38,414 nt of DNA from positions 1-38,414 of the forward strand of contig JAFGIL010000004.1 in assembly GCA_016929635.1 (NCBI GenBank). Reading direction: 5' to 3'. A program made the translations under genes and the position numbers. A model generated the notes under the pieces. That model saw only the letters and a list, made by a program, of their open reading frames with translations. It searched no databases and had not been told where the DNA came from. Positions 11,570-38,414 of this stretch are shown one piece after another (position 1 is the stretch's first letter; each line of letters begins with the position of its first letter). Origin of the DNA: Endomicrobiales bacterium (GTDB taxonomy: Bacteria > Elusimicrobiota > Endomicrobiia > Endomicrobiales > JAFGIL01).

Positions 11570-11577
11570 ATTCCTCG

Positions 11578-16081: not shown

Positions 16082-16130
16082 CAATATCTCCTGTCTCCTT
16101 ACTCTTCAAAATGCTATTCAATTAAGATCT

Positions 16131-19563: not shown

Positions 19564-22500
19564 TTAATTGTTCTTTAAATTCTCAATCCATTCACTAAGT
19601 TCCTTATTTTGAGGTTCCAGCTCCAATGCTCTTTCAGCCATTTTTAATGCTTCTGATTTCTTGCTCATATTCAAATAACATATAGCTATATATTGATAAG
19701 CTCCGGCAAATTTTGGATGTAATTCAATAACTTTTTTAAACGTACTGCATGCATTTTCATAATCGGCATTATTAAAATAATCAATTCCCTTGGTAAACAA
19801 ATCATCCGTCTCTTCAATACTATCTAATTTAGTATCTTTTGCTTCCATTTGCTTCATTTTATTTCTGAAATCTTCTGCCTTTGAACGCAAATCTGAAAGC
19901 ATCTCCTGAGTATGCTCACGTTCAGCAATTAATCCCTCCTCTTTAACTGTCATTTGTTCTGTCAAGTTTTGTATTTGCTTTTCTTTTGCTTCAATAAGCT
20001 TAGCCACTCTTTCACTTTCCTGTTTTAACTCATTTTCCAAATTTTCAATATCCGAGCTTATTTCCCTAAATATATTTATCACTGAGTTTTCTTTCATCTT
20101 TTGCTCTTCCTGCCATCTTTTTTCTTTTTCTCTTGTTTCACTCGTAATAGTTTCCAACTCATTTCTTAAGTATTCCAGCTTATCTTTTTTGCCCGGCAAC
20201 TTTTTATTATATTCATCCTGCAGGTTATCCACTTCTTCCCTTAATTTGTCAATATTCTTGGTAATTTCATCTTCCCTTCTCCTTACCTCTGCATTTCTCC
20301 TATCTTCACGTAAATTTAGACGTATTTTTAATGTATTTATTTCCTCTTCCTTCAGATGCAATCTGTTTAACCAGTTTTCCTTTTCTTCTGTCAATTCATA
20401 TTCTAATGCAAATAATTGTTCCTTCAGTTTGTTTTGTATCTTCCGAATTTCTCTTTCTGTCCTCTGCCTAGCTGATTGAGATGCGGTTTCCTTTAATGCT
20501 GCCTCCAGCTTGATTTTTTCTATGCGCCTTTCCAGCTCCTTGATGTTTTTATCATTAGTCATTGTTTCCTGTTTTATTCTTTTTTCCCAAGAATCAATCT
20601 CACCGAGTAAAACATTATGCTTATTGAGCAAATCTGACTCTAACTGTTTCCACTGTGTTTTTTTCTCCTGCTCACTTGCTTGAGACTCATTTTTAATTTT
20701 TAATAGCATATTCTCTTTTGTATTATATTCAGCCATATATTCTTTTTTTATTTCAGACAATTTCCTTGAAGCTTCCTTAATTTCATTTTCCAGCACATTT
20801 TTCTCATCTTCCCATAATTCTATCCTCTTTTCTTCCTCAGATTTGGATCTCAATTCCCAGAATTCCAAATTTGATTTCAATACAGAGATTTCCTTTTCTC
20901 TGCCATTCAAAGTTTCTTCCCATTCTATCTGCAACTGGGAGTATTTATCTTCTAACTCTCTTATATAAGTTGCCAGCTTATTAATATCCTCCTCCATCCT
21001 TCTCTTATCCGCACTGCTTTCTTCTTCAATTCTATTTAGATATAATTCATAATTACTTCGATAATTTTCTATCTCCTGATTCTTCTCCTGTATTTTGCTA
21101 TTAATTACTTCATTCTCTTCCCTTATCCTGTTATTTAAATTATCCAATTCTTCTTTTAGTACTGTTTTTTCGCCTTCCAACTCCTTCTCTTTTTGTTTCC
21201 AATTATCTTCCCAGGTCTTTTCCCTGTCCGATAATTCTGACTGCAGCGAAAGTATTTCTTTTTCTCTTAATCTCAATTTTTCTTGCGATATTATTTTTAT
21301 ATCTTTCAGCTTTTCTTCCAATTCAGCTTTTGTTTTTTCAGTGCTTCTTTTTATTTCTGCATACATCAATTTGTCCTTGTATATTTTTTCCTGTCTGTCT
21401 CTTTCTCTTTTTTCCAAATCAGAGCGCATTGCGACAAACTTATTGTTCATTTCTGCTATCTCAACTTTATATTTCTCTTTCAATTGATCAAACTGGCTGC
21501 TGGCCTGTTTTATACGATTTTCCATACGGCTTTCATACATTTCATATTCTTTTTGAGCTTTTTCTCTCTCATTATTATAGAATAACTGCCTCTCCTCAAT
21601 TTGTTTCCTTAAAGATTCCATCTCGCTTTCTTTAGCTTTCATTATTTGAGGATACCTTCTTTCATCCTTTTCAATTTCTTTCTCCAAGTTTACAATTTCG
21701 TTTTGCATCTGCTCTATCAGTATCTGATTTTTCTGATTCTCGGATTCGCTTTTAATAGCATACTTTTCAGTTTGTGCTAGTAACCCCTTTTCATATTCGT
21801 TATATTCCTGCTCCTTTTTAATCAACATATCATTAAGATTATTATTTATTTTTTGGCGTTCACTCTCTATTTCCGATATTTTACTATTCATATCATTTTT
21901 AGCATTGTTGATTTTATCTTTCCAGATTGTTCGCATTGACTTATACTCAGCTATTTTATCATTCAAGTTATTATTCAACGCTTCTATTTTATTATTGATC
22001 TTTAATATTTCGTCTTCAGCTTCTTCTTTTTTCATTGATAAAAGCCGCCCCAGCTCATTCTTATGCACTTCCAGCGGCCTTATTTCATTTTCATATTTTA
22101 CTTTTATGTTTTCTATTCTTATGTTAAACTTTGTCTCGTTCTCATTTAATGTTTTTTGCAATTTGCTTATCTGTTCTTCCTTCACCTTTATTTTAGCTTC
22201 ATAATCCTGTCTGTATTTTTTAATCTCATTTTTTAGTACTTCAGACTCCTTATCTCCTCTTTGCAAAATAACCGCTATTTCGTTTTCATATTTTTTAGTT
22301 TCTAATTCAATGCTGGCTTCCAATTCATTTAATTTTGCTTCCTGTTCTACTGATATTTGCTTTCTTTCTGTTAATTCTTTGCTTATCTTTCTTATTGCGT
22401 CATCCTGCTCTGATTCCAACTTCTTTATAATGCTTAACAAATCCTCCTTTTTTATTCTAAATTCCTTAATTATATTTGCTCTTTCAGCTGTGTTCTGCTC

Positions 22501-25500
22501 TTTATTTGAGTATATCCTATTTTGCAGAATGTCCTCTTCTTTTAATAATTTTTCCAGATTATCATTTAGTAATTTATTATTTAACTCTATTTCAGATTTC
22601 AAGCTTTCTATTTTTTGATGATTTATATTTTTAGCTTCAGCCAACTTTTCATTCCACCTTATTTTTTGTTCGTTCAAATAGTTTATTTTCAGGTTTCTTT
22701 TACTTCTCAATTCTGATATCAATTTATCCGTTGATATTAACTCTTCTTCGAGCTCTTTCTTTCTTATCTTACTGCTTTTTTCTATTTCTCTTTGTTTTTG
22801 CGTTATTTCATTTAGCCTGCTATTTAATTTATCTTTCAATTTATTCAACTTTAACTTAGTCTGAGATTCTATATCCTTTATATAATCGTTTAATTGGGAT
22901 ATTTTGGTTTTCTTAATACTAATGTTATTATTTCCTTCCAGTTTCACATTCTTCAATTCCTGATTTATTGAATCTATTTTATTTTGGTTTATGCTTTTAA
23001 TTGAGTTATATTCTTCTTCAAGCGCCAGAAGATCTTCTTTTGTCTTGTTTTCTATGCTTTCAATATTAGTTTTTTCTCTCTTCAATTCCTCTCTGCTATT
23101 TGATAATTTATCACTTAATGCCTTTTGAACGGATTCTTTCTCTTTTTCTAATTTTATGACATTTTCCTGCACCTTATCTATTCTATTCTTATATCTTTCA
23201 ACGATTTCATTTTCTTCCTTATGTGCCTTTTCCTTTATCATATCCAGCTTATAATCCAGCTTTGTTTTTTCTGACTCCAAAAGATTCACTTTATCATAAT
23301 TTCGCTTCTTTTGAGCCTCAATTTCACTCTTCAGATCATCTAATTTATTATTGAATACGATTTTTGTATCTTCAATATTCTTTGCCCATTTTTTTCTTAA
23401 AGATTCCAATTCGGAATGTTTTATTCTATGTTTTTCCTTTAATTCTGATATGCTATTAATAACGCCTTCTATTTTATTTTGTGCGCTTTCCTTTTCCCTG
23501 TCTATTGCTTCTTGTATTTCATCTCTCCTTTTTATCAATGCCTGTAAGCTGTTTTCCGAATCCTTTATTAGCTTATCTTTTTCAGTTGTATATTTTTTAT
23601 CTTCTTTTTCAACTCTTAATTCAAGATTCAGCAATATTTCTTCCTTTTGCTTAACTTCCTGGCTGTTTTCCTGCTTCAAATAGTTTAATTCGGATATATT
23701 CTTATTTATCTCATTATTATGTTTAGCCTGCAGCTCTTTTATCCGAGTTTCGTTTACGTATATTTCATTTTTTATATTTTCTTCAATATTTCCCAGAGAT
23801 TGCTGTAACTCCATTAACTCTTTTTCCTTTTCGGACAATGCAACTGCAGTATTTCCAATTACTTTTTCCTCTTCGCTCTTCAACCTGATAATATTTGATT
23901 CAATATCTGCTGATTTTGATTTATATTCATCGTCTAATTTATGTTTTTCCTGCTCAAATATGCTTTTAGCCGAAGATAATTTAAGAAGCATTTCCTTTTC
24001 TTCTTTTTCTAAAGCTCCGAGTTTCTCAATGAACTGATTTTTTTCAGCCTCTGCCTGTGCTTCAATTTCATTTATCCTGGCTTTATATTTTTCTTCCTCC
24101 AATTTGATTAAAGCCTGCTGATTCTGCAATTTGTTACTTAATTCAATTTCTTTTTTCTCAAATTGTTCCTGTATTTGCTGTTTCTGAATATTCTTATCAT
24201 TTATCTCATTTTTTCCCTGTTCAGTTATTCTTAATATACTCTCTTCTAAATCCTTTGCTTTCTTAACTATTGGCATTTGTTCTTTTTGCAATTTAGTCCT
24301 TAACTGCTCAATATTCTCTTTTACCTGCAACTCCTGTACAGATAATTTATTTTTGTAGAATATTACCTCTTTCTCTTTTTTCTTTAACATCTCCTGCCAG
24401 TGGGACCTTTGCTTTTCAAGATCCGCATTCAGCGAAACCAGTTTTAATTGCAATTCATCCTTCTTTGCTTTTAATTTATCAATATACTCAGTATTGCTTG
24501 AAATGAGCTCATTTTTCCTATTATTCCAGTCTTTTTGATATTCCGCGATTTCCAATTCTTTTGCTTCTAATTCCTTCCTCCAGTATTCTTTTTCCTTTTC
24601 AAGTTTTTTTTCAAGAATTGCTAACTTATTCGCCAACTCCTTTTTCTCTTTTTCTGCCTGTTTTTCTTTTTCCTCCCACTCGCTTTGTATTTCCTTTAAC
24701 CTTAATTCAGCATTTATTTTTAAGGTTTTTAGCTCTTCATCCTTGGAGATTATAATCCTCTGCCATTTATCTTTTTCTTCTTCTATTTTTCCCTTAATAT
24801 CTTTTATCTTCCTGTTAGCCAAATTTTCTGCTTCCTGCAAGTCTTTAAGATTTTTGTCTCTGTCAGCCTTTTCCTGAGTCTCTTTTAACATCAAAGAGGC
24901 TTTCGTTTGCTTGAATTCTTCTTCCCTGGCAATAAATATTTCTTTCCAACGTTCCCTTTCTTTCATTAAATGGTCTTCAACAATTTTAATTTTTTCGTTA
25001 ATCCTTGAATGATGATTTTTTATCTCTCTTTCCCTGTTGTTAGTTTCAGTATTAATAGAATTTAGACGGTTATCCAAAGCTGTGCGCAAGGCAAACAGTT
25101 CCTCGTCTTTTTGTCTGAGCATGCTTGCCCATTCTTCCCTTTGTTTTTCCAGTTTGGACTCTAAATCATGCGATTGAATCTCCCAATTTTCAATCATATC
25201 CCTTTTAAGCGACCCTGCTTTTTCATCCTCGATTTTCAGCTGTGAATCTTTGAGGGAGATCTGCATTTTTAAATTAATAATTTCATTTTCTTTATTTTTT
25301 ATCTGAGAAATCCACTGATTTTTACTTTCCAATAAACTCCTTTCCATATTTTCGCATCTCTTATTTGCTTCATCAAGCATCGCCTTTATATTATTCAATT
25401 TATTTTCAGCATCCATTTTCTTCTGGGCTTCAAGAAAGGTTGTCTGGTGTTTTGCTTCATCTATTTCCTTATCTTTTGACGAAAGGCGTTCACTCCAGTC

Positions 25501-25860
25501 TCTTATTTCTTTATCCATTATATTTTCCATCTCTTTTAAATCCTTGCGTATCTGCTCCTGCAATAGGTTTAAACTGCCCTCTCTCTTCTCCCTCTCCTGA
25601 TTGGTACGATAAATGAGCATATCCATCTGTGTTTTGAGCGCTATCCCCTCTTCTTCTTTATCTTTTATTTTTTTGTACCACTCTTCACGCTCATTTCTAA
25701 TTCGTTTTTCAATATTTTTCAGCTGTTCCTGAGCCTTCTGATATGCTTCTTCCAACTCCTCTCTATTAGGAAGAGAAATCTTCGTATCTTTTATTGGCTC
25801 ATTTAATTGCTCTTTTAAATTATCCTGTTTATCGTCACTTTTTTTCTTAAAAAACCTCAT
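19564..25860 (-). CDS. Giant coiled-coil protein with 61-residue repeats and C-terminal TPRs
   Basis: The 2098-residue protein starts MRFFKKK, has a short disordered head, and from about residue 35 to 2010 is almost entirely coiled coil. Tryptophans stand at residues 61, 122, 183, 244, 305, 366, 427 and 488, exactly 61 apart, each in a W-x3-[ILF]-x2-[KR]-[ED] context. The last ~80 residues are two TPR units (YENACSTFKKVIELHP ... AYQYIAICYLNMSKKSEALK ... AERALELEP). These closely match the C-terminal TPRs of the FliF-FliG protein encoded upstream. A GTG at 25875 overlaps the ribosome site; the ATG at 25860, eight bases after GGAGG, is the start. The coiled coil alone could span very roughly 300 nm if it forms a single rod (inference). 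A cytoskeletal or linker role is likely; no enzymatic domain is present. Confidence 0.8.
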   Translation of the reverse strand: MRFFKKKSDDKQDNLKEQLNEPIKDTKISLPNREELEEAYQKAQEQLKNIEKRIRNEREEWYKKIKDKEEEGIALKTQMDMLIYRTNQEREKREGSLNLLQEQIRKDLKEMENIMDKEIRDWSERLSSKDKEIDEAKHQTTFLEAQKKMDAENKLNNIKAMLDEANKRCENMERSLLESKNQWISQIKNKENEIINLKMQISLKDSQLKIEDEKAGSLKRDMIENWEIQSHDLESKLEKQREEWASMLRQKDEELFALRTALDNRLNSINTETNNREREIKNHHSRINEKIKIVEDHLMKERERWKEIFIAREEEFKQTKASLMLKETQEKADRDKNLKDLQEAENLANRKIKDIKGKIEEEKDKWQRIIISKDEELKTLKINAELRLKEIQSEWEEKEKQAEKEKKELANKLAILEKKLEKEKEYWRKELEAKELEIAEYQKDWNNRKNELISSNTEYIDKLKAKKDELQLKLVSLNADLEKQRSHWQEMLKKKEKEVIFYKNKLSVQELQVKENIEQLRTKLQKEQMPIVKKAKDLEESILRITEQGKNEINDKNIQKQQIQEQFEKKEIELSNKLQNQQALIKLEEEKYKARINEIEAQAEAEKNQFIEKLGALEKEEKEMLLKLSSAKSIFEQEKHKLDDEYKSKSADIESNIIRLKSEEEKVIGNTAVALSEKEKELMELQQSLGNIEENIKNEIYVNETRIKELQAKHNNEINKNISELNYLKQENSQEVKQKEEILLNLELRVEKEDKKYTTEKDKLIKDSENSLQALIKRRDEIQEAIDREKESAQNKIEGVINSISELKEKHRIKHSELESLRKKWAKNIEDTKIVFNNKLDDLKSEIEAQKKRNYDKVNLLESEKTKLDYKLDMIKEKAHKEENEIVERYKNRIDKVQENVIKLEKEKESVQKALSDKLSNSREELKREKTNIESIENKTKEDLLALEEEYNSIKSINQNKIDSINQELKNVKLEGNNNISIKKTKISQLNDYIKDIESQTKLKLNKLKDKLNSRLNEITQKQREIEKSSKIRKKELEEELISTDKLISELRSKRNLKINYLNEQKIRWNEKLAEAKNINHQKIESLKSEIELNNKLLNDNLEKLLKEEDILQNRIYSNKEQNTAERANIIKEFRIKKEDLLSIIKKLESEQDDAIRKISKELTERKQISVEQEAKLNELEASIELETKKYENEIAVILQRGDKESEVLKNEIKKYRQDYEAKIKVKEEQISKLQKTLNENETKFNIRIENIKVKYENEIRPLEVHKNELGRLLSMKKEEAEDEILKINNKIEALNNNLNDKIAEYKSMRTIWKDKINNAKNDMNSKISEIESERQKINNNLNDMLIKKEQEYNEYEKGLLAQTEKYAIKSESENQKNQILIEQMQNEIVNLEKEIEKDERRYPQIMKAKESEMESLRKQIEERQLFYNNEREKAQKEYEMYESRMENRIKQASSQFDQLKEKYKVEIAEMNNKFVAMRSDLEKRERDRQEKIYKDKLMYAEIKRSTEKTKAELEEKLKDIKIISQEKLRLREKEILSLQSELSDREKTWEDNWKQKEKELEGEKTVLKEELDNLNNRIREENEVINSKIQEKNQEIENYRSNYELYLNRIEEESSADKRRMEEDINKLATYIRELEDKYSQLQIEWEETLNGREKEISVLKSNLEFWELRSKSEEEKRIELWEDEKNVLENEIKEASRKLSEIKKEYMAEYNTKENMLLKIKNESQASEQEKKTQWKQLESDLLNKHNVLLGEIDSWEKRIKQETMTNDKNIKELERRIEKIKLEAALKETASQSARQRTEREIRKIQNKLKEQLFALEYELTEEKENWLNRLHLKEEEINTLKIRLNLREDRRNAEVRRREDEITKNIDKLREEVDNLQDEYNKKLPGKKDKLEYLRNELETITSETREKEKRWQEEQKMKENSVINIFREISSDIENLENELKQESERVAKLIEAKEKQIQNLTEQMTVKEEGLIAEREHTQEMLSDLRSKAEDFRNKMKQMEAKDTKLDSIEETDDLFTKGIDYFNNADYENACSTFKKVIELHPKFAGAYQYIAICYLNMSKKSEALKMAERALELEPQNKELSEWIENLKNN
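24219..25680 (-). repeat. Coding repeat, eight 61-codon units
   Basis: Eight consecutive 183-base units begin with the Trp codons of residues 61 to 488 of the giant coiled-coil protein. The units are similar in pattern rather than sequence: W at 1, Ile/Leu/Phe at 5, Lys/Arg at 8, Glu/Asp at 9. The same pattern with a non-Trp first residue continues in register at 549, 610, 671 and 732. Confidence 0.85.
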
Positions 25861-26037
25861 CTTGCAAACCTCCACTGAAATTCTGCGGTATAAAAACTGC
25901 TAGTATTTACAACAAGTTTTAATCACGATATAAAAAGGCAGTATTTATCCAGTCCATTTTACAGGCTTAAATAAATCTAAATTAATTATATTATGATATC
26001 AGCTTTATTCTCGTTTCCAAATTATTAATTCTGGTTG
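25861..26037 (-). other. 177-base intergenic gap
   Basis: This is AT-rich spacer between the FliF-FliG gene and the giant coiled-coil gene. It contains the latter's GGAGG near 25869-25873. No convincing terminator is visible. Weak promoter-like TTGT and TATA stretches occur, but none with good spacing. Confidence 0.4.
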
Positions 26038-27879
26038 TTAACCCACCACTCCTTTTTGTTCTGCAAGCCAATTTTTTAGTTCCTGATTATCCGGATTTAT
26101 TTTTAAAGCTTCCTCAAAAGCTGCAATAGCTTCGGCATTTTTGCCTAATGAGAAATATGAGTTCCCAAGATACTGATAAACCGCAAATTGATTGGGATCC
26201 AGTTGTGCGCAATATTCAAAATAGCTTATAGCCTGTTCGTACTGCCCTGCCTCATAAAACTCCACTCCAGCATTAAAATATTCATCAAATGAAGCCTCTG
26301 ACTGGGATGCTTCTTCACTGCCAGAAACAATGTCCTGGGCACCCTCAAGTATAATGCTCTTTGGTTTCTCCCGAATAAATATTTTTCCTTCTTTCTCCAG
26401 TTGTTTAATAACATCAAGTATTTTCTTTCTTTCCTCTTCAATTTCCTCTTGAGTCAAGGGCCTGCCGTACTCCATTTCTTCTTTTAGAACCGCTGCAGCG
26501 TTTGCGGACATGTTTGCAAAGAACTTGTTTAATATATCGGGCGATGCATCCCTTAAAGCCCTTGCCAGACTTTCTGACTTCAGTTCTCTTATTACAGACT
26601 GCATTGCCTGATCAGGAAAACTGGGTATATCCTCAAAGGTGATTATAAATTTTTTAACCTTCTCGAAAAGTTCAGGTTTATCATCCCTTAAATAATCCAA
26701 AATATTGTCTCTTGTTGTTTTATCAACTTCCTCCAGTACATTCAGCAAATGATCCAGCCCTCCAATGAGAAAATCGATTTTTTCCTTGAGGTCCGAATCT
26801 ATGTTTAACACCTGTTCATGTGTCATCTGCCGGATAGTTGCCATCTCAACCGCAACCTGAGCCTGCTGGTCCGGGGTCAAAGCACTTAAAACCTCTTTAA
26901 CATGCTCGGGTTTGAGATAACTGACGACAAGAGCAATTATCTGCGGCTCTTCCTTTCTGATTAGATAAATAAGCCTTTTTAAATTGTCGTCATCCACATA
27001 ATGAAAAGGTTTATACTTTTTCTTTTCTTCTTCAAGTGCTTCGAGATCGGCCAAGGTTCCAGGGCCACCCTTACCTCCTTTTCCCTCTCCGCCTTCTTCC
27101 TCGCCGGGCCCGCCTTCAAATTTTGAATCAACCGTTACCTCTGTACCGCCCCTGTCTCTTAAAGTTCTCACATAAGACCTGAAAAAGCTCGACAGCGGGC
27201 CAAAAAGGAAGAAAAGCAGCAGTAACGCAATGATTACCGGTATTAAAACATAAGGATCCATGAGTTTTTCCCAGAAGCCTCGTGTAAATTTAGTCTTTCT
27301 AAACTCGATTTTATCCCCGCGTTTCTCGTTGATTTTTAATGAAGCAATTATTGCATCTCTGACCATATCAAGTTTCTCTTTGCTTACTTTCTCATCATGC
27401 AATATTGTAACTACCTGCTTTTTTAAGACTGTACGCACTTCCACTTTTGTCCTTCTTGCTTCACCTGTCTCCTGTTTAGATTCTCCGGGTGCAGACTCCT
27501 GAGTTACTGATTTAGGATTTGGCACCCCGGGTAAAAGATATTCCATTTCGCCAAGCCTTTTTTTTCTGTCTGTCTTCTTTTCCTGGGCTTCCTGTTTTGT
27601 AACCTTTGTCTCAACGCCTAACTCTATATCAACTATAACAACTGCTTTTTCAGGGCCAAGGATTTTATCAAGTACAAACTGCTGCAGATACTCGGCTTTA
27701 TCTTTCTCATACTTTATTTCCTGCTCCATTAATGACATCTGGCTTGTATCTGTAACAGCTGTCTGAGAATAGCAGATCCCGATGAGCAGTATGCTGCAAA
27801 ATAGAAATAAAATTATAAAAGCATAGCGCTTAAATAATGTAAAAATTAAATTATTAGCCGTGGGCATTATCCTTTTCAC
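26038..27879 (-). CDS. FliF C-terminal domain fused to FliG (M and C domains) with TPR tail
   Basis: This is a 613-residue inner-membrane protein. Residues 19-38 form a signal anchor. Residues 55-198 match the C-terminal periplasmic part of FliF (LDKILGPEKAVV, then IASLKINEKRGDKIEF). A second transmembrane helix is at 210-227, and a Gly/Glu-rich linker at 252-275. Residues 292-418 match the FliG middle domain: EEPQIIALVVSYL, then IGGLDHLLNVL and the FITFEDI block. Residues 420-503 match the FliG torque domain: IRELKSESLARALR, FFANMS, and ILDVIKQLEKEGKIFI. TPRs occupy 530-605. FliF's N-terminal ring-building motifs and the FliG N domain (its FliF-binding part) are missing, as expected for a covalent fusion. 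The GTG at 27879 is nine bases after AGGAGG; an ATG at 27867 is possible. No other flagellar gene is nearby. Confidence 0.85.
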   Translation of the reverse strand: MKRIMPTANNLIFTLFKRYAFIILFLFCSILLIGICYSQTAVTDTSQMSLMEQEIKYEKDKAEYLQQFVLDKILGPEKAVVIVDIELGVETKVTKQEAQEKKTDRKKRLGEMEYLLPGVPNPKSVTQESAPGESKQETGEARRTKVEVRTVLKKQVVTILHDEKVSKEKLDMVRDAIIASLKINEKRGDKIEFRKTKFTRGFWEKLMDPYVLIPVIIALLLLFFLFGPLSSFFRSYVRTLRDRGGTEVTVDSKFEGGPGEEEGGEGKGGKGGPGTLADLEALEEEKKKYKPFHYVDDDNLKRLIYLIRKEEPQIIALVVSYLKPEHVKEVLSALTPDQQAQVAVEMATIRQMTHEQVLNIDSDLKEKIDFLIGGLDHLLNVLEEVDKTTRDNILDYLRDDKPELFEKVKKFIITFEDIPSFPDQAMQSVIRELKSESLARALRDASPDILNKFFANMSANAAAVLKEEMEYGRPLTQEEIEEERKKILDVIKQLEKEGKIFIREKPKSIILEGAQDIVSGSEEASQSEASFDEYFNAGVEFYEAGQYEQAISYFEYCAQLDPNQFAVYQYLGNSYFSLGKNAEAIAAFEEALKINPDNQELKNWLAEQKGVVG

Positions 27880-27996: not shown

Positions 27997-28047
27997 AATA
28001 TTCCTTATCCTTAACCTTTCCACTGGTCATAAACTATTCCTTCTCGT

Positions 28048-28152: not shown

Positions 28153-28232
28153 CCATACCTGGCACACTCCGAGTACCAGATGATTTTGATGAACCTATAT
28201 ATTTATATATAGAATTAAATATATTCATTTTA

Positions 28233-29855
28233 TTACTGCATCTGATTTAAAAATTCCGGAACCACCTTATTGGTCGGATCAAGCTCTATGACTTTCATCC
28301 AGATTTCTTTTGCTCTCTCAGCCTGATCCATCATAAAGAACGCTGAACCCATAATTTCAAGAGCTATGATGTTTTCGGGTTCCAGATTCAATATTTCCTG
28401 GCATTTTATTAATGCCTGGTCATACTTACCTTCAATAATTGCCTGTCTTGCATCATATACCTTCTGATCTATTATGGTAAACCCTACCACGTCTTCCTTG
28501 TGCGATTCTGTAAGTTTTATGCCTAAATCTCTTTCAATTCTGTTCAATAAACCAAGCAGTTTCATGTTGCCCGGATTTTTGTAATATGCATAACGGAAAG
28601 CATTAATGGCTGTCTTTTCATCGCCCTCTACATATCCTCCTACACCTTTACGAATAGAAACTGCCTCTTCGCTTTCTCCCGTAGCGCTCTGGACAAATCC
28701 AACAACTACATGCATTTTGTTATACATCTTCTTTACTTCTTTGCTGGTTGGGTCAACATCTAGAGCTGCCTCGATTCTTTCTATAGCTAATAAGAAATTA
28801 CCCTGCCTGTAAGCTTCTATGCCTTCCTGAACAAAACGGCGCACCAAAGCATCGCGGTCATGTATGATTGAAGGCCCAAATCTCCAGGAACCGGATATTC
28901 TGTGTGAAAGCCCTAAATCATGCAATGCAAATGAATAATCAATCCCGTAGTCTTTATATTTCACACCAAAGCCTGCCGTGGTTTCACGAATCCCTTTTTC
29001 ACCTTCAAAACCCAAACGAAGTGACGCAAAATTTATTAACCAATACTCTGCGCCTAAATGCCAACCCATGTTAGCTCTTATATTTTTATCTATATCAAAA
29101 GCAATAAGAAGCTTATCTCTTAAGAATTTATGACTCGCGCCTGTCCTGAAAATCAACGGAAGCTTGTCATCTGTATCCCCGAATTTAGTACTTAAAAGAT
29201 TCTGTATTCCAAATCCGAGTTTTAAATTCGCAAATTTATGATTTATTCCGTCAATTAAAACCGTAGTATCAAAAGTAATAAAACCGTTTGTAGATGTATC
29301 AAGTGTATGAGTAATATACTTGCCTGCCAATCCGACTGAAAGGTTTTCTCTTATCTTTTTTCCATATGCTGTGGTAAATGCCATCCTTGAATCGTCAAAA
29401 GTTCCCAAAGTCTGTATATCTATAATATCTTCTTTGTTTGAATCAAAAGTAATTGCTATTTTTTCGAACCCCCCGGAAAAAAGGCGCGTCAAGTTTACTC
29501 CGAAAACACCAAGCTTCGGGGTGGGATGTACATAGCTCAAGAAATCGTAACTTGTATCAGCAAAAAGGTTTACGTGTAAAGCCATTATCTCTTTTCTATC
29601 CAGCTGTGTCAGTCCTGCAGGATTCCAGTACGTTGCTGAAGCATCATCACAAACTGCAAAGAACGCTTTTCCCATTCCAAGAGATCTTGCACCGGCTCCC
29701 CAAGAAAGGAATTGTCCCGGCTGGCCTCCGGTAGCAGCCGCATACAACAGGGTACATGGCTCAGGGAACAGCGCATAGCTTATAACAAAGACAAAAAGCA
29801 TTGCCTTTGTTATTCTCTGCGCTATTAAAATGGTCGTTTTAAGAATTCCCTTCAT
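28233..29855 (-). CDS. PorV/UPF0164-like outer-membrane beta-barrel with C-terminal TPRs
   Basis: The 540-residue protein has a long N-terminal signal region (about 1-40), then the family signature GARSLGMG-x-AF-x-AVCDDASATYWNPAGL at 55-81. A beta-barrel runs to about 345, and two groups of tetratricopeptide repeats occupy about 350-540. The barrel is paralogous to the one at 9941-11569, which has a LysM instead of TPRs. The TPRs would lie in the periplasm, where they could dock partner proteins. In type IX secretion PorV delivers CTD proteins to the surface, and the gene just upstream (25 bases) encodes such a CTD. The ATG has AGGG a few bases before it. Length exceeds ordinary PorV because of the TPRs. 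Function in secretion is inferred from homology only. Confidence 0.8.
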   Translation of the reverse strand: MKGILKTTILIAQRITKAMLFVFVISYALFPEPCTLLYAAATGGQPGQFLSWGAGARSLGMGKAFFAVCDDASATYWNPAGLTQLDRKEIMALHVNLFADTSYDFLSYVHPTPKLGVFGVNLTRLFSGGFEKIAITFDSNKEDIIDIQTLGTFDDSRMAFTTAYGKKIRENLSVGLAGKYITHTLDTSTNGFITFDTTVLIDGINHKFANLKLGFGIQNLLSTKFGDTDDKLPLIFRTGASHKFLRDKLLIAFDIDKNIRANMGWHLGAEYWLINFASLRLGFEGEKGIRETTAGFGVKYKDYGIDYSFALHDLGLSHRISGSWRFGPSIIHDRDALVRRFVQEGIEAYRQGNFLLAIERIEAALDVDPTSKEVKKMYNKMHVVVGFVQSATGESEEAVSIRKGVGGYVEGDEKTAINAFRYAYYKNPGNMKLLGLLNRIERDLGIKLTESHKEDVVGFTIIDQKVYDARQAIIEGKYDQALIKCQEILNLEPENIIALEIMGSAFFMMDQAERAKEIWMKVIELDPTNKVVPEFLNQMQ

Positions 29856-29880: not shown

Positions 29881-30276
29881 TCAGTGTATCACACCAATTT
29901 TTCTTGTTGCCAAAATTCGGTTAGAATCATTTGTGATTTCAACAACACAAATGTAACCTCCTTTTGCAACTTTCTGACCGCTTTCGTTTGTTCCATCCCA
30001 TCGAATCCTCTTAATACCGGACATCATTCTTTCAGAAGGATACTCACGAACCAAATTACCGAAAAGGTCATAAATCATCATTTTTGTGTTTGCTTCATAC
30101 GAAACTTTACAAATAATCTGCGTTGATTCATGCCGACTATCAAAAGGATTTGGATAGTTTGTAACCAGGTTTTTGTGCAAATCATAGACGTTTGCCGGTG
30201 AAATCGCATCCACGCATACCAAACCTAAAATTACAACCTTTAACAAAATCAGTTTGATAAATCTTTTTGCTTCCAT
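29881..30276 (-). CDS. Mini-protein: signal peptide plus FlgD-like C-terminal sorting domain
   Basis: The 131-residue protein consists of a signal peptide (about 1-26) and one FlgD-like Ig domain. That domain has N-x-PNPFDSR, IYDLFGNLVREY, IRWDG-x-NESGQKVAKGGYI and the ending RKIGVIH. The domain is closely related to the C-terminus of the giant protein that ends at 30982, whose last residues are RKIGIIH. Such domains close many secreted proteins and can act as sorting signals. An ATG at 30285 directly abuts AGGAG (30286-30290), so the start must be the ATG at 30276, nine bases downstream. An intrinsic terminator and two c-di-GMP riboswitches precede it. It may be a decoy, a stub left by gene truncation, or a real small surface protein. 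Confidence 0.8.
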   Translation of the reverse strand: MEAKRFIKLILLKVVILGLVCVDAISPANVYDLHKNLVTNYPNPFDSRHESTQIICKVSYEANTKMMIYDLFGNLVREYPSERMMSGIKRIRWDGTNESGQKVAKGGYICVVEITNDSNRILATRKIGVIH

Positions 30277-30304
30277 TTTACTCATCTCCTGTATCTTTCT
30301 AAAA

Positions 30305-30425: not shown

Positions 30426-30552
30426 TACTTCGGTAACCCAGCCACCTTGCTTCAATTTTAATTGAAGGTTAGGTCCGTGTTTCAGCGTTCTGCTAAAACT
30501 CGCTATACAGCGAGGCTTTGCGTCCCCCGGTTTCCCGGGGTTTGCCATCCCG
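30426..30552 (-). promoter_or_regulatory. c-di-GMP-I (GEMM) riboswitch aptamer, proximal
   Basis: On the minus strand the conserved blocks occur in order: GGCAAACC (30539-30546), a GGGAAACC tetraloop stem, GACGCAAAGCC (30514-30524), then GGTGGCTGGGTTACCG (30431-30446). Together these match the GEMM-I consensus, including the GNRA tetraloop and receptor-type 3' block. The P3 arm is longer than usual. A perfect hairpin ATCCCGCC/GGCGGGAT (30547-30564) abuts its 5' side. A terminator follows at 30305-30340. Confidence 0.88.
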
Positions 30553-30680
30553 CCTGGGCGGGATAATCATCCCAACATACATTGAGATGACTTTTATCGG
30601 CTTCTACCCAATAATGGGTAGCTTTTATTTTGAAAGAGCATACCTGCTTTTCCTTTGGTAGTTTGAGGGCTAATTCTTAT

Positions 30681-30754: not shown

Positions 30755-30845
30755 TTTTTCGGCAACCCGGCTAGCTTGGATAGCCCCCTACCTTTAGCTC
30801 CGTGGCTTTGCGTCCTCCGGTTTCCCAGAGTTTGCCATTTATCGT
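30755..30845 (-). promoter_or_regulatory. c-di-GMP-I (GEMM) riboswitch aptamer, distal
   Basis: On the minus strand GGCAAAC (30830-30836), a GGGAAACC tetraloop stem, GACGCAAAGCC (30804-30814) and GCTAGCCGGGTTGCCG (30760-30775) match the GEMM-I consensus. It starts about 25 bases after the predicted transcription start. A 15-base segment inside it (30784-30798) is complementary to 30719-30733, just in front of the terminator. Confidence 0.88.
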
Positions 30846-30876
30846 CGATAAAACACTATATTTTTCCTTCTAGTTA

Positions 30877-30970: not shown

Positions 30971-30984
30971 TAAAACCGGTTTTA
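30971..30984. other. 14-bp perfect palindrome at the giant gene's stop
   Basis: TAAAACCGGTTTTA is a perfect palindrome without a loop that overlaps the TAA stop of the giant gene. It does not resemble an efficient terminator. It may be a weak terminator or a chance occurrence. Confidence 0.35.
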
Positions 30985-33900
30985 ATGGATTATTCCTATC
31001 TTACGTATTGCAGTAATTACACCCCTGTCTGATTTAACCTTAATATGGGCTATATATCCGCCTTTTGACACTTTCTGGCCAGCTTCATTGCTACCATCCC
31101 ATGGTATCCTATTGGCACCTTTCTTACCACCCATCTCACCCGGATTGAACTTCCATTCATAAACCATATAACCCAGCAAATCATACAAAGTTATGGTTAC
31201 TTCAGCATCCTGATTAAGAATATAGACTATATTTGTCTTACCTTCTTCCCCGCCTTTACGGGTATCGACTGGGTTCGGGAAATTGGATACTGATGATATA
31301 ACCTTATCCGGCATTCCCGTAGGTGCAGCAGGTGAAGCCTCTGACCATGCCCCCCAGCTGCCTGCTGCGTTCTTTGCACGTATCCTGTAATAATAGAAGT
31401 GTCCCTGAGCTCTTGATTCATCTTCTATAGGTTCACCTTCCTCGTCAGCTGCTGCTCCATCGCCTACATTAATACTGAACTGGCCTCCGCTGACTACATC
31501 TATGGTCTTCCATACAGGATTTGTATCCACTCTTTCCTGTATTTCATAGAGTTCAACGCCAGACTCAAAGTCTTTTGCATGTACCCATGTAATCTCATAC
31601 TTTCCTTCTGTAGCAGGTTCAGCTCCGGCTTTTGCAGGTGCGGGAAGCACGTCTTTCGGTTCAGATGGTGCTGATAAGTCAATCTTTAAAACACCCCATC
31701 TGGGAGGCGTTTCACCGGCAAGGCTGGAAACTGCTTTAATTTTGAAGAAATATGCTTTATTAGTTACCTGGTCACCTTTATAATGGTCTTCTATTTCGGT
31801 ACCTAAAGCACCTCTAGTGATTCCAGTAAATGCGTCTCCGTTAGCACTCAAATCTGAATATTGTATTATTTCCTTTCCTACTATGATATAACCTGAACGA
31901 TCAAATCCAGATGTAGGTATATAATCCTCCCCTCTCTTAGGATGGCCTTCAGGGAACTCTACTGTTATGCTTCCTTCCTGTTTTGATGTTAATAAATCAT
32001 CCGCAAGGAATACAACCAAAGGCTCAGACAATGCAAGCCCTCGTATTTCGATGCTGTCTTCTGTAGTTGTTGTCCAGCCTTTTTCTCCCATGCCTATGGT
32101 AGCATCTTCATTGTTAGGATTGCTTCCAATAGCAGCTTTATACGCCTGCACGTCAGCTGCCTCCACTTTTATAATTTCCCATTGTGCGCTTGCTTTTGTA
32201 TTAGAGTTATGCCAGGCCACTTCCTGGACACCTGTCTTATCAGGCCTTACATCTACCATCATTATTGCCACGTCAGCGATGCTGAAATTGACGGATTTAT
32301 ACGGGAAAGTATTATCACTGTCTGATATTGACGTTGCCGGTACTATCCATAAATCATCAAAATCGACCAATTGAACACCAGCTGTATGCTGATAAATATT
32401 ATGATCTCCGAAATCAGTGGAACCTATATCAGCAGTTATGAAGAACGATTTACCGCTATTCGATACATTAATTCCGCAACTGAGAATTGCCATACCTCCC
32501 GAGAAATTGCGTATGCTTTCCGGATCAAGACCATGATCCATCAACCACTTCTTATGAGGAATGCTATCTAGTTCCGTGTCAACTTTTGCATTAAAGAACC
32601 CGTCACCGTCATCCATCCACAGTTTAATCTTTGACAAATCTCCGTCACCGATACCGAGATAATAGTTATTGTTCGTAGGAGGCGTCTCAATGGTTCCTGT
32701 CTGCTGTATGGTTATGGAAGATATTTTTACAGTATTTGAATTAGATACAAATTTCAACCTAAGTATCGGCACATCCTGGTCACCCGGAAGCTTAACAAGA
32801 GGGGCAACACTTTCACTCTGTACAATAATTTTAATCGGTTTTATTTCAACCCTGGAACTATTGAAATATCCTTGTTCACTGAACGGCAGTGTTGTCGGGA
32901 AAACCTCAACGCTGTTTGGATTATTTACAGTTATCCACGATCTGTCTTTAACACGTACTCCTATGCTGTTTCCTGCATGTGCTGACAAAGCAATGTCGTA
33001 CAGCACAAAGTATACCTGAGGCACAGGGCGTAAAGTCTGAGGCAGAGTTAAATCAATGTCGACTGTCGGCCCGATAGTATCGCTCGGGAAAGCATCGCTG
33101 CCGCTGGATATCAGGGTATCACCTGCATCAAACTTTTCGTTTCCATTTGAATCCGCATATATCTTTACATATTCAACATCATTATTAGAAGCATTTGTAG
33201 GTTGCCCGGGCGCACCTACTCCGATTCTTTCCACCCTTAATTTACTCCAGACAGCTTCTGAGACATCCGTTTTAAGACGGAACATTAAAGCCGGCACGTT
33301 TCTATCTCCCTGAGTCACTTCTTTTCCATAAAGAATATCCCTGTTGTTTTCCGGGTCATGCCATGGATAAGGCTCAAAAGTAACAGTATCCGGATATTCG
33401 ACTATTTTTACTAACTCCGTTTCATATGGAGGAGGCAATATAAATTCAACCTGGTCAGGGGTATCAACCAGAATATAATCTGTTGAAGCAAGTGAAACGC
33501 CTACAGTATGACCAACCTCCGCGAGTGAATCAATTGTATATGTAATAAAGTATTTTGAAGTTTCAGTGGAGGAGATAACCTGCGGGGTTTTAAGTGTTAT
33601 TGTTACGGTTTTATCTGCGAAATGCTCCGTACCATAAGAAATCATTCCTATATAGTTACCTTCGCTTTCAGCTTTGTCTCCAGCGTCAAAATAATCGTTA
33701 TCATTCAAATCCTTCCATATATTTACAAGTGCTACGTCTTTATCAACACAATCTCCTATTAAATCCACTTTAATGCCTTCCCATATTACTGTATTCTGAT
33801 TTGCCTTAAGCTCCAGCCTCATCATGCCTACATCCATATCATTCTGATTAACAGTACCTGCTTTTATTGCTTCATATCTTGTTTCTAAAGTATCCTCGGT

Positions 33901-36900
33901 TGCATATAAGAACATATACCCTGAGCGGAACGGGAACGGATCTCCAGGAAAATCAGACACAGCGCCGTCTATAATGGTATGTTTTCCGTCATCCATCTTT
34001 GAAGCGCCTATCTTCATATAGCTGACTTCCTGGCATTCTATACCGATAACCGAGCCTTTATTTGCGGTTTCATCTATATCTAACGTGACCCAATAAACGG
34101 TCGGGGTTGTCTTAATTAATATGTACGATGCGCCTTCGGAGTCCACTCCATCGCCTGTAAGTAAAGTCCAGCTTACTGCATCAGTTCCTTCAAGCCCTCC
34201 GACATTGTCGCCGAATTTTGCGGTGTTTGCGGATACAAGAGTTTCCACTGCTATTAATCCTGTCACTGGATCTCTGTCTAAAGTACCATTCCCGTTATCT
34301 CTCCATATCTTTACTCTTGTAACATCTTCATCATATCCAATAAGACCCGAACCTTTCGGCACTGCACGCCTGAATTTCAATCTATACCATCTTACCTGGA
34401 AGCCGTCGCAAGATAAGGTCATCTTAAGGTATGGGGCATTAACAGATCCTTGTTTATAAGACCTTGAAACCATTTCTCCGTTGGAATGTGCAGATGCAGC
34501 ACTGCCCCATGCACCGCGAGTTAATCCGCTAAATGAGTTAGTCCCTGTATTTCTGCTAGTATAAAGAATAATTTCTCCATCTATAACCAAGCCGCCTTCA
34601 TCCGGGAAGTTTGCTACAGAATCCACATAAATCGTACTATCCTGCGCGCCTGCGCTTGCAACCAAGTATGCAACATTTATAGGCTCAGGAACCACTGTCA
34701 CACTACGCGGGGAAGCAACTATTTCGATTAAATCTGAGTCAAACGGCAGATTAGTTTCTGCTATAGTGTTAGGATCTGAAACCGTGAGCGCATCAGCACC
34801 TTTTATTCTTATGCCTAAAGTTTCATCAGGAGGAGCGGTATTTGACATATCATAAGTTACAAAATAATACTTCTGGCTTTCTGCTACTGTAGTAATCTTG
34901 CGCCACAGATTAGGATGCACAGGATAGCCTCCTTCAAGAACAATCGTATCTGTTGCTATCGTGACAAGAGCCTCTCCTGCAGTTCCCGCATTACCAAAAT
35001 AACCTTCTCCTATCACCCAGTCATTTGTAGTGTCAGGACGCAAGAATCCGTTTAAGTCCCCGTCTAACCATACTTTTACTGCCACAACATCAGCATCCGT
35101 TGCAGTTCCCAAACGGTTGAATGTTATGTTATTAAAGTATGCTTCTGAATGATCTGTGTGCATGCTAAAACCAAGGACTGCCTGGCATGTGGTAGCCTGA
35201 GTCAAGACTTTTCCATCTTCCGGATGCCAAGGATTTACAGTAGTCGTATTATTAGGCACGATAGTAACTTCATCAGCATACTCTGTTACCCTTGTGATTT
35301 CACTGTCAAATGAGAAATTCTGAGGAGAAACCAGTTTAGGAGAATTAACTCTGAAATAACCTGTATTCTCAACATTCAAGCCAAGCTGTATCTGCCCTAA
35401 AGTTGAGAAATAACTGATGTCATATGCTATGAAATAAGTCTTTCCTATTCCTCCATTGCCTAAAGAATAGTCAAAGAAAATTTCCTGCCCGCCTTCCGGC
35501 CCAAGGATGTCGAGCTCAACTGTCGAAGAAACGAAATAATCATAACCACCGCTTGGGGCTGCAGATACAAGCTGGTCAGTAGCAATATTAAGTTTTTCGT
35601 CTCCTGTTGCAATTACCAGCTCACCCTGATTATGGGCAACAGGGGCGGTATTCAATACTCCCCTGCCGTTTGAATCAAGCACCATAACAGCGTTCATAGT
35701 ACTTATAAGCTGGGTATATTTGATTATTTCGTTGCCCACATACAGATAGCCGGCTGAACCCATTGCATAAGTGGTTGTAAGTTTAATAAGGCCTGTTGTA
35801 TCTACATTTAAGGGCTGTGCAAGATAAGATACTCCTCGGTCATAATAAACCTTAACCTTTGAAACATCCGAATCTTTATTTAACCCGGTAACATTTCTGC
35901 GGTCAACTTTCAATCTGTTCCAAATTACACTTCTTGCATCAGCACGCAATCTTAATCTCACCAATGGCACGTCAGTATCACCCTGCACCACTGCACCAGG
36001 CACAACACCACCGCTTACTGCTTCTTCGACTATTAAAGTATCCTGGGTAGGCTGGATGCTTACTACCGTCGATGTAACCGGGAATAATGCATACTGCTCA
36101 GGATACTGGGTAGAATGCTGCCCCGCCATTGTTGCTCCGCCGGCAAATTGGAAATTAGTACGAGATAGTGTTACTCCAATTGTATTATCAATACCGGCAG
36201 AATCTGCAATATTGTAAACAAGGAAGAAATATTTTGTAGTCTGCCCGATTAAACCAACCGGCTTCCCGTAGTCATCAGTCAATGCATTGTCTATGTCTAC
36301 TACGGCCTGTCCATATTCAAATATGGCTGCAGGAGAAATAGGATCATCAAATGTATCCTGGTAAACCCCATCATCATTATCATCATTAAACATTCTGCAG
36401 GATACAACGTCATCATCATCACCCGAACCTGTAAGGGTGACTATTAACCTGTCCCAAGTTGCATCGTATTCATTAGTCCATAATCCTATTCTAAGCATAC
36501 CTACGTTGACCTTGCCCTGGGGCACAGTGCTGTTTTGTTGTAAGGGCTCAGGGCTTCCGGCTCCGTCCGGATCATACCAGGCTGCTATATCAACAGGCTC
36601 TATAAGTACTTTTGCAGGCTCAGTTTTAACTTCAGATTCAAATGAATCAAACGGGAAGTTATTTCTTGCAAGTAAAGCATCTCCTTCCAAGGTTAAAGAA
36701 CCTATTTTAAGCCTCATGCCCAAAGTGGAGCCCGTAGGGGCATTTGCAGGGAGTCTTACGCAAACAAAATATGTCTGTGCTGCGCCTTTAGAAATGGGCT
36801 GAGGCGTATTTAAAGTTAAAACTGTCTCATACTGGGTAGCATAAGCATACGAAGCGCTTGAAAGGAATAAATCCATAGCACTGTACGGATTCCCTAATAC

Positions 36901-38414
36901 GGTATCTCCGTCGAAAAGACCATTGCCGTTAGCATCTTTATATATACAAACTTCCGTAATCTCGTCAAAATTCAAAGTTCCGAATCTTTCAACTGTAACG
37001 TGTGTTAAAGTTGCCGTAGACTGAATTGCAGGCAGGTTTGGCTGAACCTGAACCGAGAATCTTATCATTGGTACAGGAGAAGGTTTGTCAACCAATGTGC
37101 CGTCTCCCTGATATAATGAATCTGACAGCAGGTAAATATTTCTTTTATCCGAATCTAAAGGATCAGGGGCAAAATCAGTCGGGCTCATAACGACACCAAC
37201 CGTGACCACATCGTCATCAGAACCGCGCACATCCGTCGTCCATCCGTTTATGTCGATATTTGCATAATCACTTGCTCCTATACGCAGTTGTTCCTGTATA
37301 AGATCCGTTATGGATAACTGTACGTACCTGCCCGGTTCAGTTTGGTCTGACCCGTAACCGCTTATCAGGAATGTATAGGTTGACGGTGACATTGTAAACA
37401 TGTCCGGCGTTCCATTATTCCAGAACACAACAGTACCTTCATAGTAATTACCGTTAACCGTATCTCCTTTTGCCCTGTTCCCATACTGGTCCCGGGCCTG
37501 AACAGTAACCTTACCCTGTATTTGCACAGAGAGAGGATTTGATTCATCGTAGGGATGTTCAATACTAAAATGAGTTGCAACATTAGGAGTAATTATCTGG
37601 CTTTGATAAGCATCCTGCAGGCCTGATATCCTCGCCCTGAGCGGTACCGAACCAGACAATGTTCCTTTAAAGTAGAAATCTGCCTGCGATTCACCTACGT
37701 TTAATGTAAGCGAAAGCGGTGTATCATTCGGGTTAATAGGGGTATACATTGTAGCACCGGGGTCTTCCGATGCTTCAGCACCGTAATTAATTGTACCTGT
37801 GGATATTACAGATATAACAGTTACTCCCATTGAAGGAGTAACAGGAGAAACATTTCCGAAGTAATCCTCAAGGTTTACTTTTATAACAGTGTCCGTAGTG
37901 GTTCCAACCTGATAATCAGGGTAATACTGTATTGTTGTTCCTGCTATCAGCCTTCTTTGAGGCGTGCCAAACTTGATCTGGTAAGGCAGGTTTGCAATAA
38001 CCGTATAAGTTTGTACCGCGACAGTCCAGCCGAATCCTCCATATAAAATATCTTCATCCGCACTTAAATTGTAATTCCCTAATAATGTATCAATCATACA
38101 GAAAGAAGTGGTATGAGAACCAATTCCTATTACTGCAAGTCCTGTGTTGTTCTGCCAGTCGTATCTGTCACTTCTATACTGCTGCTGACCCGGGGCGTTA
38201 GAGGTTATGCTGTAAAGTATTCCATCGTACGGCACATGGTCATTTGCATCATCTAGCTGTACAACTGAAGGGTTAGAATACTTGTCCTGAGTCTGTAATA
38301 AGAAATTGTAAGATGTTACGCCTGCAGTTAATACCTGATGACTTGAGATAAATACAGTTTTTGATATGTCAGTAGGAATAATGTCAACTAATTGAGTGGC
38401 TAAAGACCAGGCCC
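30982..38414 (-). CDS. Giant secreted modular protein, N-terminus beyond window, FlgD-like C-terminus
   Basis: At least 2476 residues lie in the window. A GTG at 38235 looks like a start but is not: the frame stays open to 38414 and encodes similar material (VLTAGVTSYNFLLQTQDKYSN) upstream. The first ~270 visible residues are Ig-like units of the TAG...DQYGN type. About eight beta-rich modules follow, each with a Ca-binding-type loop (for example KDANGNGLFD). Three inserted segments of the EII-x-Y...TRGALGT-x3-H type are spread through the protein. Near the end are an FN3-like domain (about 31330-31660) and a FlgD-like domain (30982-31310) ending AIRKIGIIH. This is a cell-surface protein, perhaps an adhesin. 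It is directly upstream of the riboswitch locus, and its C-terminal domain is shared with the mini-protein there. Confidence 0.82.
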   Translation of the reverse strand, partial: AWSLATQLVDIIPTDISKTVFISSHQVLTAGVTSYNFLLQTQDKYSNPSVVQLDDANDHVPYDGILYSITSNAPGQQQYRSDRYDWQNNTGLAVIGIGSHTTSFCMIDTLLGNYNLSADEDILYGGFGWTVAVQTYTVIANLPYQIKFGTPQRRLIAGTTIQYYPDYQVGTTTDTVIKVNLEDYFGNVSPVTPSMGVTVISVISTGTINYGAEASEDPGATMYTPINPNDTPLSLTLNVGESQADFYFKGTLSGSVPLRARISGLQDAYQSQIITPNVATHFSIEHPYDESNPLSVQIQGKVTVQARDQYGNRAKGDTVNGNYYEGTVVFWNNGTPDMFTMSPSTYTFLISGYGSDQTEPGRYVQLSITDLIQEQLRIGASDYANIDINGWTTDVRGSDDDVVTVGVVMSPTDFAPDPLDSDKRNIYLLSDSLYQGDGTLVDKPSPVPMIRFSVQVQPNLPAIQSTATLTHVTVERFGTLNFDEITEVCIYKDANGNGLFDGDTVLGNPYSAMDLFLSSASYAYATQYETVLTLNTPQPISKGAAQTYFVCVRLPANAPTGSTLGMRLKIGSLTLEGDALLARNNFPFDSFESEVKTEPAKVLIEPVDIAAWYDPDGAGSPEPLQQNSTVPQGKVNVGMLRIGLWTNEYDATWDRLIVTLTGSGDDDDVVSCRMFNDDNDDGVYQDTFDDPISPAAIFEYGQAVVDIDNALTDDYGKPVGLIGQTTKYFFLVYNIADSAGIDNTIGVTLSRTNFQFAGGATMAGQHSTQYPEQYALFPVTSTVVSIQPTQDTLIVEEAVSGGVVPGAVVQGDTDVPLVRLRLRADARSVIWNRLKVDRRNVTGLNKDSDVSKVKVYYDRGVSYLAQPLNVDTTGLIKLTTTYAMGSAGYLYVGNEIIKYTQLISTMNAVMVLDSNGRGVLNTAPVAHNQGELVIATGDEKLNIATDQLVSAAPSGGYDYFVSSTVELDILGPEGGQEIFFDYSLGNGGIGKTYFIAYDISYFSTLGQIQLGLNVENTGYFRVNSPKLVSPQNFSFDSEITRVTEYADEVTIVPNNTTTVNPWHPEDGKVLTQATTCQAVLGFSMHTDHSEAYFNNITFNRLGTATDADVVAVKVWLDGDLNGFLRPDTTNDWVIGEGYFGNAGTAGEALVTIATDTIVLEGGYPVHPNLWRKITTVAESQKYYFVTYDMSNTAPPDETLGIRIKGADALTVSDPNTIAETNLPFDSDLIEIVASPRSVTVVPEPINVAYLVASAGAQDSTIYVDSVANFPDEGGLVIDGEIILYTSRNTGTNSFSGLTRGAWGSAASAHSNGEMVSRSYKQGSVNAPYLKMTLSCDGFQVRWYRLKFRRAVPKGSGLIGYDEDVTRVKIWRDNGNGTLDRDPVTGLIAVETLVSANTAKFGDNVGGLEGTDAVSWTLLTGDGVDSEGASYILIKTTPTVYWVTLDIDETANKGSVIGIECQEVSYMKIGASKMDDGKHTIIDGAVSDFPGDPFPFRSGYMFLYATEDTLETRYEAIKAGTVNQNDMDVGMMRLELKANQNTVIWEGIKVDLIGDCVDKDVALVNIWKDLNDNDYFDAGDKAESEGNYIGMISYGTEHFADKTVTITLKTPQVISSTETSKYFITYTIDSLAEVGHTVGVSLASTDYILVDTPDQVEFILPPPYETELVKIVEYPDTVTFEPYPWHDPENNRDILYGKEVTQGDRNVPALMFRLKTDVSEAVWSKLRVERIGVGAPGQPTNASNNDVEYVKIYADSNGNEKFDAGDTLISSGSDAFPSDTIGPTVDIDLTLPQTLRPVPQVYFVLYDIALSAHAGNSIGVRVKDRSWITVNNPNSVEVFPTTLPFSEQGYFNSSRVEIKPIKIIVQSESVAPLVKLPGDQDVPILRLKFVSNSNTVKISSITIQQTGTIETPPTNNNYYLGIGDGDLSKIKLWMDDGDGFFNAKVDTELDSIPHKKWLMDHGLDPESIRNFSGGMAILSCGINVSNSGKSFFITADIGSTDFGDHNIYQHTAGVQLVDFDDLWIVPATSISDSDNTFPYKSVNFSIADVAIMMVDVRPDKTGVQEVAWHNSNTKASAQWEIIKVEAADVQAYKAAIGSNPNNEDATIGMGEKGWTTTTEDSIEIRGLALSEPLVVFLADDLLTSKQEGSITVEFPEGHPKRGEDYIPTSGFDRSGYIIVGKEIIQYSDLSANGDAFTGITRGALGTEIEDHYKGDQVTNKAYFFKIKAVSSLAGETPPRWGVLKIDLSAPSEPKDVLPAPAKAGAEPATEGKYEITWVHAKDFESGVELYEIQERVDTNPVWKTIDVVSGGQFSINVGDGAAADEEGEPIEDESRAQGHFYYYRIRAKNAAGSWGAWSEASPAAPTGMPDKVISSVSNFPNPVDTRKGGEEGKTNIVYILNQDAEVTITLYDLLGYMVYEWKFNPGEMGGKKGANRIPWDGSNEAGQKVSKGGYIAHIKVKSDRGVITAIRKIGIIH

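Follow-up and report, generated by a model that had tools for sequence, protein, structure and literature searches.

A single open reading frame in the 38,414 nt stretch of DNA analysed here (the window) joins parts of the flagellar proteins FliF and FliG in one chain, and on balance we favour the view that its product serves as the rotor subunit in a rotary motor driven by ions, which is composed of the flagellar rotor and stator core alone and powers a surface machine. The motor core is well supported by homology, and gliding is inferred. At the protein level this is a previously undescribed variant of FliF/FliG, with a motor core that is plainly flagellar. We found no earlier description of a natural FliF-FliG fusion, of FliG without a flagellum, or of motility in Elusimicrobia in the open-access literature searched (preprints excluded); a 2026 review of gliding mentions neither FliG nor Elusimicrobiota (PMC13104615), and a 2025 study of stator evolution does not mention Elusimicrobia (PMC12505986).

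Organization of the fusion protein

The fusion gene is transcribed leftwards (minus strand), starts with GTG and contains no internal stops. The domains of its product, shown by sequence or fold, are in order a membrane helix, FliF RBM3, a second membrane helix, a Gly-rich linker, the FliG middle and C-terminal domains, and two TPRs; the hydrophobic helices lie at aa 20-38 and 211-229. The chain has no FliF RBM1-2, no FliF tail and no FliG N domain. The features are as follows.

26038..27879, minus strand: FliF-FliG-TPR fusion, proposed rotor subunit (613 aa, one open frame)
27295..27741, minus strand: FliF RBM3 (S-ring) domain, aa 47-195, with a shortened collar insertion
27193..27255, minus strand: second membrane helix, aa 209-229 (hydropathy 2.9 at aa 211-229)
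27031..27150, minus strand: Gly-rich linker, aa 244-283 (low confidence, pLDDT <50), standing where a FliF tail and a FliG N domain would be
26374..26976, minus strand: FliG middle and C-terminal (stator-facing) domains, aa 302-502
26050..26280, minus strand: two TPRs at the cytoplasmic end, aa 534-610 (TPR_2, 1.5e-15)

The original prediction, made from the sequence alone, was that the C-terminal part of FliF, its second helix, a Gly-rich linker and the FliG middle and C domains are present in one chain, and that the linker replaces the tail of FliF and the N domain of FliG; both claims held. It overlooked that FliF RBM1-RBM2 is absent, that the gene lies on the minus strand and that the chain ends in a TPR pair (about aa 530-610, E=1.5e-15).

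Both FliG domains are matched above the Pfam cut-offs (FliG_C, PF01706, E=1.1e-28; FliG_M, PF14841, E=1.4e-15), phmmer aligns aa 289-503 with Thermotoga maritima FliG (1lkv, E=8e-39), and the fold of this part matches a stator-bound FliG (8ucs_H) with a TM-score of 0.92 of the target. A separate FliG N domain was not found; the PF14842 match falls on the FliG middle region (aa 312-398), and the TIGR00207 match, which starts at model position 100, scores 142.8 bits where the cut-off is 226.7. The position corresponding to Escherichia coli FliG D288 is acidic (Glu) in all 21 fusions with TPRs that were compared, and the FliM-binding EHPQ motif is degraded in these proteins, which is the pattern expected if contact with MotA is kept and FliM is lost. 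The FliG torque residue R281 is also lost (Gly in 18 of the 21), and the stator contact must therefore differ in part.

The FliF homology is weak by sequence and, as predicted by the structural model, strong by fold. PF08345 matches aa 70-198 with E=0.0016, under the Pfam cut-off, and is matched in 11 of 17 relatives (best 7e-6); a profile of the FliF part retrieved no FliF from the PDB, and there is no PF01514 match that would correspond to RBM1-RBM2. Modelled in isolation, the FliF part gave FliF MS-ring chains as its 18 top fold matches in the PDB (E from 3e-6 to 6e-5), and the next match had an E of only 0.05. The predicted order of elements is helix-strand-insertion-strand-helix-strand followed by the membrane helix, a layout that the model indicates to be the one of FliF RBM3, but with the collar shortened. 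The insertion loop contains a conserved LPG. A spurious match was considered, given the weak sequence similarity, and rejected because the isolated fold matched only FliF MS rings. Structural comparison of the two parts, by which the original prediction could be checked, returned FliF MS-ring chains and stator-bound FliG. The AlphaFold model of the whole fusion is of modest confidence (mean pLDDT 66, pTM 0.29), and the argument therefore rests on the fold match and not on its details.

The family is varied. Locus L159 (8547-11447) and others have long fusion frames of 960-1,280 aa, compared with 650 aa, and may hold extra domains. Relatives also contain additional FliF-FliG fusions that lack TPRs, most of which adjoin a MotA gene, usually with two MotB genes. 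The source genome itself has a second, very divergent operon on another contig (C48, locus L061), encoding a fusion (620 aa), two unidentified envelope-type proteins, MotA and MotB.

Stator genes and genomic context

No rod, export, stator or filament genes are seen in the window, as had been claimed, although the original description of the fusion as being without flagellar neighbours is true of the window only. In most of the phylum MotA and MotB are encoded in the fusion's operon, about 3 kb downstream and behind a coiled-coil gene; in the source genome and its class they are in trans to the fusion. The flagellar-type pair of the source genome is on contig C27 (locus L120), where MotA finds a solved MotA at 5e-61 and MotB carries both a peptidoglycan domain of the OmpA type and the aspartate of the channel (YSD/YAD motif). 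This stator is of the flagellar MotA/PomA/MotP type.

The co-occurrence and linkage of fusion and stator are shown by sequence. In a MotA tree, copies encoded in cis group in one clade (support 100/99) with the in-trans copies from this class, that of the source genome among them, and their partners, the fusions with TPRs, likewise form a single clade (support 100/100). Among 341 genomes, 122 have both the fusion and this MotA, 31 the fusion only, 3 the MotA only, and 185 neither, such that MotA of this clade is present in 122 of 153 fusion genomes and 3 of 188 fusion-free genomes (Fisher p=3e-58, uncorrected for relatedness). Sixty-nine of 102 strong fusion copies are no more than 10 kb from such a MotA, with a median gap of 3.2 kb. 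The ion-carrying Asp of MotB is kept in nearly all copies read, and in the torque loop of MotA the basic pair is kept and the acidic residue mostly kept. At locus L079, one of two MotB copies (15052-15678) lacks the channel aspartate (SYTGMALL), which raises the possibility of mixed MotB dimers.

The fusion lies within a cluster of leftwards-transcribed genes that, with two riboswitches, extends across much of the window.

30982..38414, minus strand: last 2,476 aa of a surface protein of 17,969 aa (whole open reading frame C31:30982-84891)
30758..30846, minus strand: c-di-GMP-I riboswitch 1 (RF01051, 81.7 bits, E=1e-14), its place conserved in relatives
30429..30556, minus strand: c-di-GMP-I riboswitch 2, in tandem with riboswitch 1 (RF01051, 43 bits, E=3e-5)
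29881..30285, minus strand: small protein with an N-terminal hydrophobic segment and a FlgD_ig / T9SS-tail-like domain (PF13860, 4e-9)
28233..29855, minus strand: PorV/PorQ-family outer-membrane barrel with C-terminal TPRs (NF033709, 1.2e-40, above cut-off)
19564..25875, minus strand: 2,103-aa predicted coiled coil with a C-terminal TPR and no membrane segment
16131..19523, minus strand: 1,130-aa predicted coiled-coil protein
15344..16084, minus strand: 246-aa predicted coiled coil with an amphipathic C-terminal end
11578..15237, minus strand: secreted protein of 1,219 aa whose sorting domain resembles T9SS type B (TIGR04131, 8e-7, under cut-off)
9941..11623, minus strand: LysM (peptidoglycan-binding) protein (LysM, 3e-7) with a weak PorV-family match (NF033709, 1e-8, under cut-off)
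7839..9911, minus strand: predicted coiled coil with a membrane helix (aa 446-464) and a weakly propeller-like C-terminal part

The FlgD-tailed small protein, which also matches T9SS tail regions, and the PorV-family gene (TPR_2, 4.7e-9) stand upstream of the fusion on the same strand, and PorV-family genes are also found beside the motor in relatives. The 2,103-aa coiled-coil gene is the conserved next gene in loci of the Endomicrobia class; in other classes a coiled-coil gene stands between the fusion and MotA. The 17,969-aa protein has an N-terminal signal-like segment, bacterial Ig-like domains and a FlgD_ig tail (loci L185-L187); its reading frame is uninterrupted, and it is very large for a bacterial protein. 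On the plus strand, 2686-3750 encodes a PilT-like type IV pilus retraction ATPase, judged by eye only.

The tandem riboswitches, also shown by sequence, are located between the giant gene and the fusion operon. A c-di-GMP-I riboswitch immediately precedes the PorV/fusion operon in 13 of 15 TPR-fusion loci, across classes, and was found in none of seven loci with other fusion types or trans MotAB. In some relatives a GGC subtype (RF03167) occupies the riboswitch position. Judged by sequence alone, the tandem pair may bind c-di-GMP or cGAMP, and there are 11 matches to GGDEF proteins in the source genome. The intergenic segment between the PorV-like gene and the fusion (28040-28170) looks structured, and an Rfam search with it gave no match.

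Distribution in Elusimicrobiota and absence of flagellar genes

The source genome belongs to the Elusimicrobiota, and its named relatives are MAGs of Endomicrobia/Elusimicrobia. Conservation of the fusion is shown by a profile search, in which in-frame and intact relatives were found in 153 of 341 Elusimicrobiota genomes and in 69 of 100 genera. This count may include ordinary FliG, as there are weak matches in flagellated genomes (e.g. G265 at 2.4e-29). The intact relatives rule out a chance resemblance, and also an assembly artefact, which would have refuted the original prediction.

The lack of flagellar genes is likewise shown by sequence comparison. The export gate protein FlhA was detected in five of the 341 genomes, is missing from 149 of the 153 fusion genomes (many of them 95-100% complete), and was not found in any of 27 genomes that include the source genome. 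FliM/FliN exceeds the cut-off in four of the 341. In the source genome FliM/FliN, FlhA and flagellin were looked for and none was found, so that of the genes originally suggested for a whole-genome search only motA and motB are present. Flagellin was identified only in the flagellated G265 and G208 among 31 genomes tested, and the N-terminal part of FliF is absent from the fusion genomes tested except for these same two.

A 2024 study reports that Elusimicrobiota genomes all lack flagellar machinery and that every isolate is non-motile (PMC11257099). The five genomes with FlhA (G208, G215, G265, G267 and G286; loci L160-L164), four of which also have FliM/FliN, contradict the published claim of a flagellum-free phylum. 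The reduced family f6, which we take to be the Endomicrobiaceae, lacks the fusion.

Proposed machine, alternatives and comparison with known systems

We propose that copies of the fusion would assemble into a ring through their periplasmic FliF S-ring domains, and that the flexible linkers would leave the FliG C domains suspended in the cytoplasm. MotA and MotB would anchor to peptidoglycan, conduct ions and push the FliG C domain, and the motor would run without an export gate, FliM/FliN switch, rod or filament. Torque would pass to an envelope machine whose parts are encoded alongside the fusion. Its long coiled-coil proteins would lie on the cytoplasmic side, probably docked on the TPRs of the fusion, and on the outside would be the PorV-like protein of the outer membrane and the giant Ig-like surface proteins, which carry T9SS-like tails. 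Adhesins moved by the motor would give rise to gliding, with expression set by c-di-GMP, and we infer that movement of surface adhesins, in gliding or adhesion, is the most likely output. It is only inferred, without experiments, that the fusions form rings, that these rotate, that torque crosses the envelope by this route and that the cells glide; no periplasmic coupler from the FliF ring to the outer membrane was identified, and no culture carrying the system is known to us. The description of the phylum's isolates as non-motile (PMC11257099) is a point against a motor, but the reduced family f6 does not have the fusion. A bolder reading, over which we are evenly divided, is of an undescribed, phylum-wide machine for locomotion or surface transport, in which a one-piece rotor and MotAB turn giant T9SS-type adhesins under c-di-GMP, with several specialised paralogous motors per cell.

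The main alternative is that the motor energises the secretion or assembly of surface proteins, as a T9SS engine replacing GldLM, and does not move the cell. The cluster does contain PorV-family genes and proteins with T9SS-like tails, and divergent SprA-like translocon matches are present in 29 of 30 genomes tested; a search for GldM gave no match, but control genomes gave none either and its absence is unproven. However, the SprA-like matches fall in collinear pieces, with best values per genome from 4e-10 to 2e-22, and in no genome do they reach the curated family cut-off; SprA-like proteins are also present in the fusion-free genomes G006 and G014; secretion should therefore not need the fusion, and we regard this explanation as unlikely. 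Less likely still is a static or sensory ring that does not rotate continuously and serves either as a scaffold or, in attachment controlled by c-di-GMP, as a stator/ring that senses load. The loss of R281 in the rotor, the reported non-motility of the phylum's isolates (PMC11257099) and the c-di-GMP riboswitches, which often govern attachment genes, are consistent with such a role, but the MotB Asp, the charged residues of the MotA torque loop and the acidic residue of FliG are largely or wholly kept, which indicates selection for working torque units.

Two further explanations can be all but set aside. The fusion could be a functionless remnant of a lost flagellum, given that FlhA is kept in just five of 341 genomes, but the frames are intact, there are several paralogues per genome, and the operon and riboswitch are conserved across the phylum. 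It could also belong to a cryptic true flagellum whose remaining genes fall in assembly gaps, as the source genome is only about 90% complete. The absence of FlhA from nearly all fusion genomes, including many complete or almost so, and of FliM/N, flagellin and the FliF N-terminal part from those tested, bar the flagellated G208 and G265, leads us to reject this at the level of the phylum.

The surface-motor interpretation, if confirmed, would describe a new kind of machine. We infer that many flagellum-free Elusimicrobiota probably move something on the cell surface with a stripped-down flagellar motor, and gliding may therefore occur in a phylum that has been described as non-motile. This is an apparent natural case of a flagellar rotor and stator working without export gate, switch complex and filament; with it, the smallest set of parts that the motor needs becomes open to test, and it bears on the evolutionary separability of the motor from the secretion apparatus. 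A linker-joined rotor without FliM/FliN would also be a simple system for torque generation without switching.

The system shares with the flagellar motor the FliF S-ring fold, the FliG M and C domains, the MotB aspartate and an OmpA-type anchor. It differs in having FliF and FliG in one chain, extra TPRs and different gene company, and in lacking RBM1-2, the FliG N domain, FliM/FliN, the export gate and flagellin; because the export gate, switch complex and flagellin were not found, we conclude that it is not a flagellum. It also matches no gliding machine described in the literature examined. With the Bacteroidota T9SS/gliding machine it shares the PorV family, a giant surface protein with a T9SS-like tail and an ion-driven stator of the 5:2 class, alongside divergent SprA-like matches under the family cut-off, but the Bacteroidota machine uses GldLM in place of MotAB and a FliF-FliG rotor (no GldM match was obtained, in a search lacking a positive control). 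The Agl-Glt machine of Myxococcus has in common a proton motor of the stator family, cytoplasmic coiled coils and an envelope complex, and is not known to include a FliF/FliG rotor. The AglRS stator of that machine belongs with the non-flagellar ExbBD/TolQR side (PMC12505986).

The closest parallel to the rotor itself is in Salmonella, where flagella built with a deletion fusion that lacks the same two joints (fliFGd-f) remain motile (PMC6445934); in non-motile hosts, rings are assembled from a full FliF-FliG fusion (PMC6079021). Since the first of these swims and the second forms rings, a one-piece rotor is mechanically sound, and the original argument from Salmonella mutants that a natural fusion is plausible is supported (PMC6445934). 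In both fliFGd-f and the natural fusion the same joints are removed and the two proteins form one chain, but the Salmonella fusions are laboratory mutants in a complete flagellum, whereas the Elusimicrobiota fusion is natural, phylum-wide and flagellum-free.
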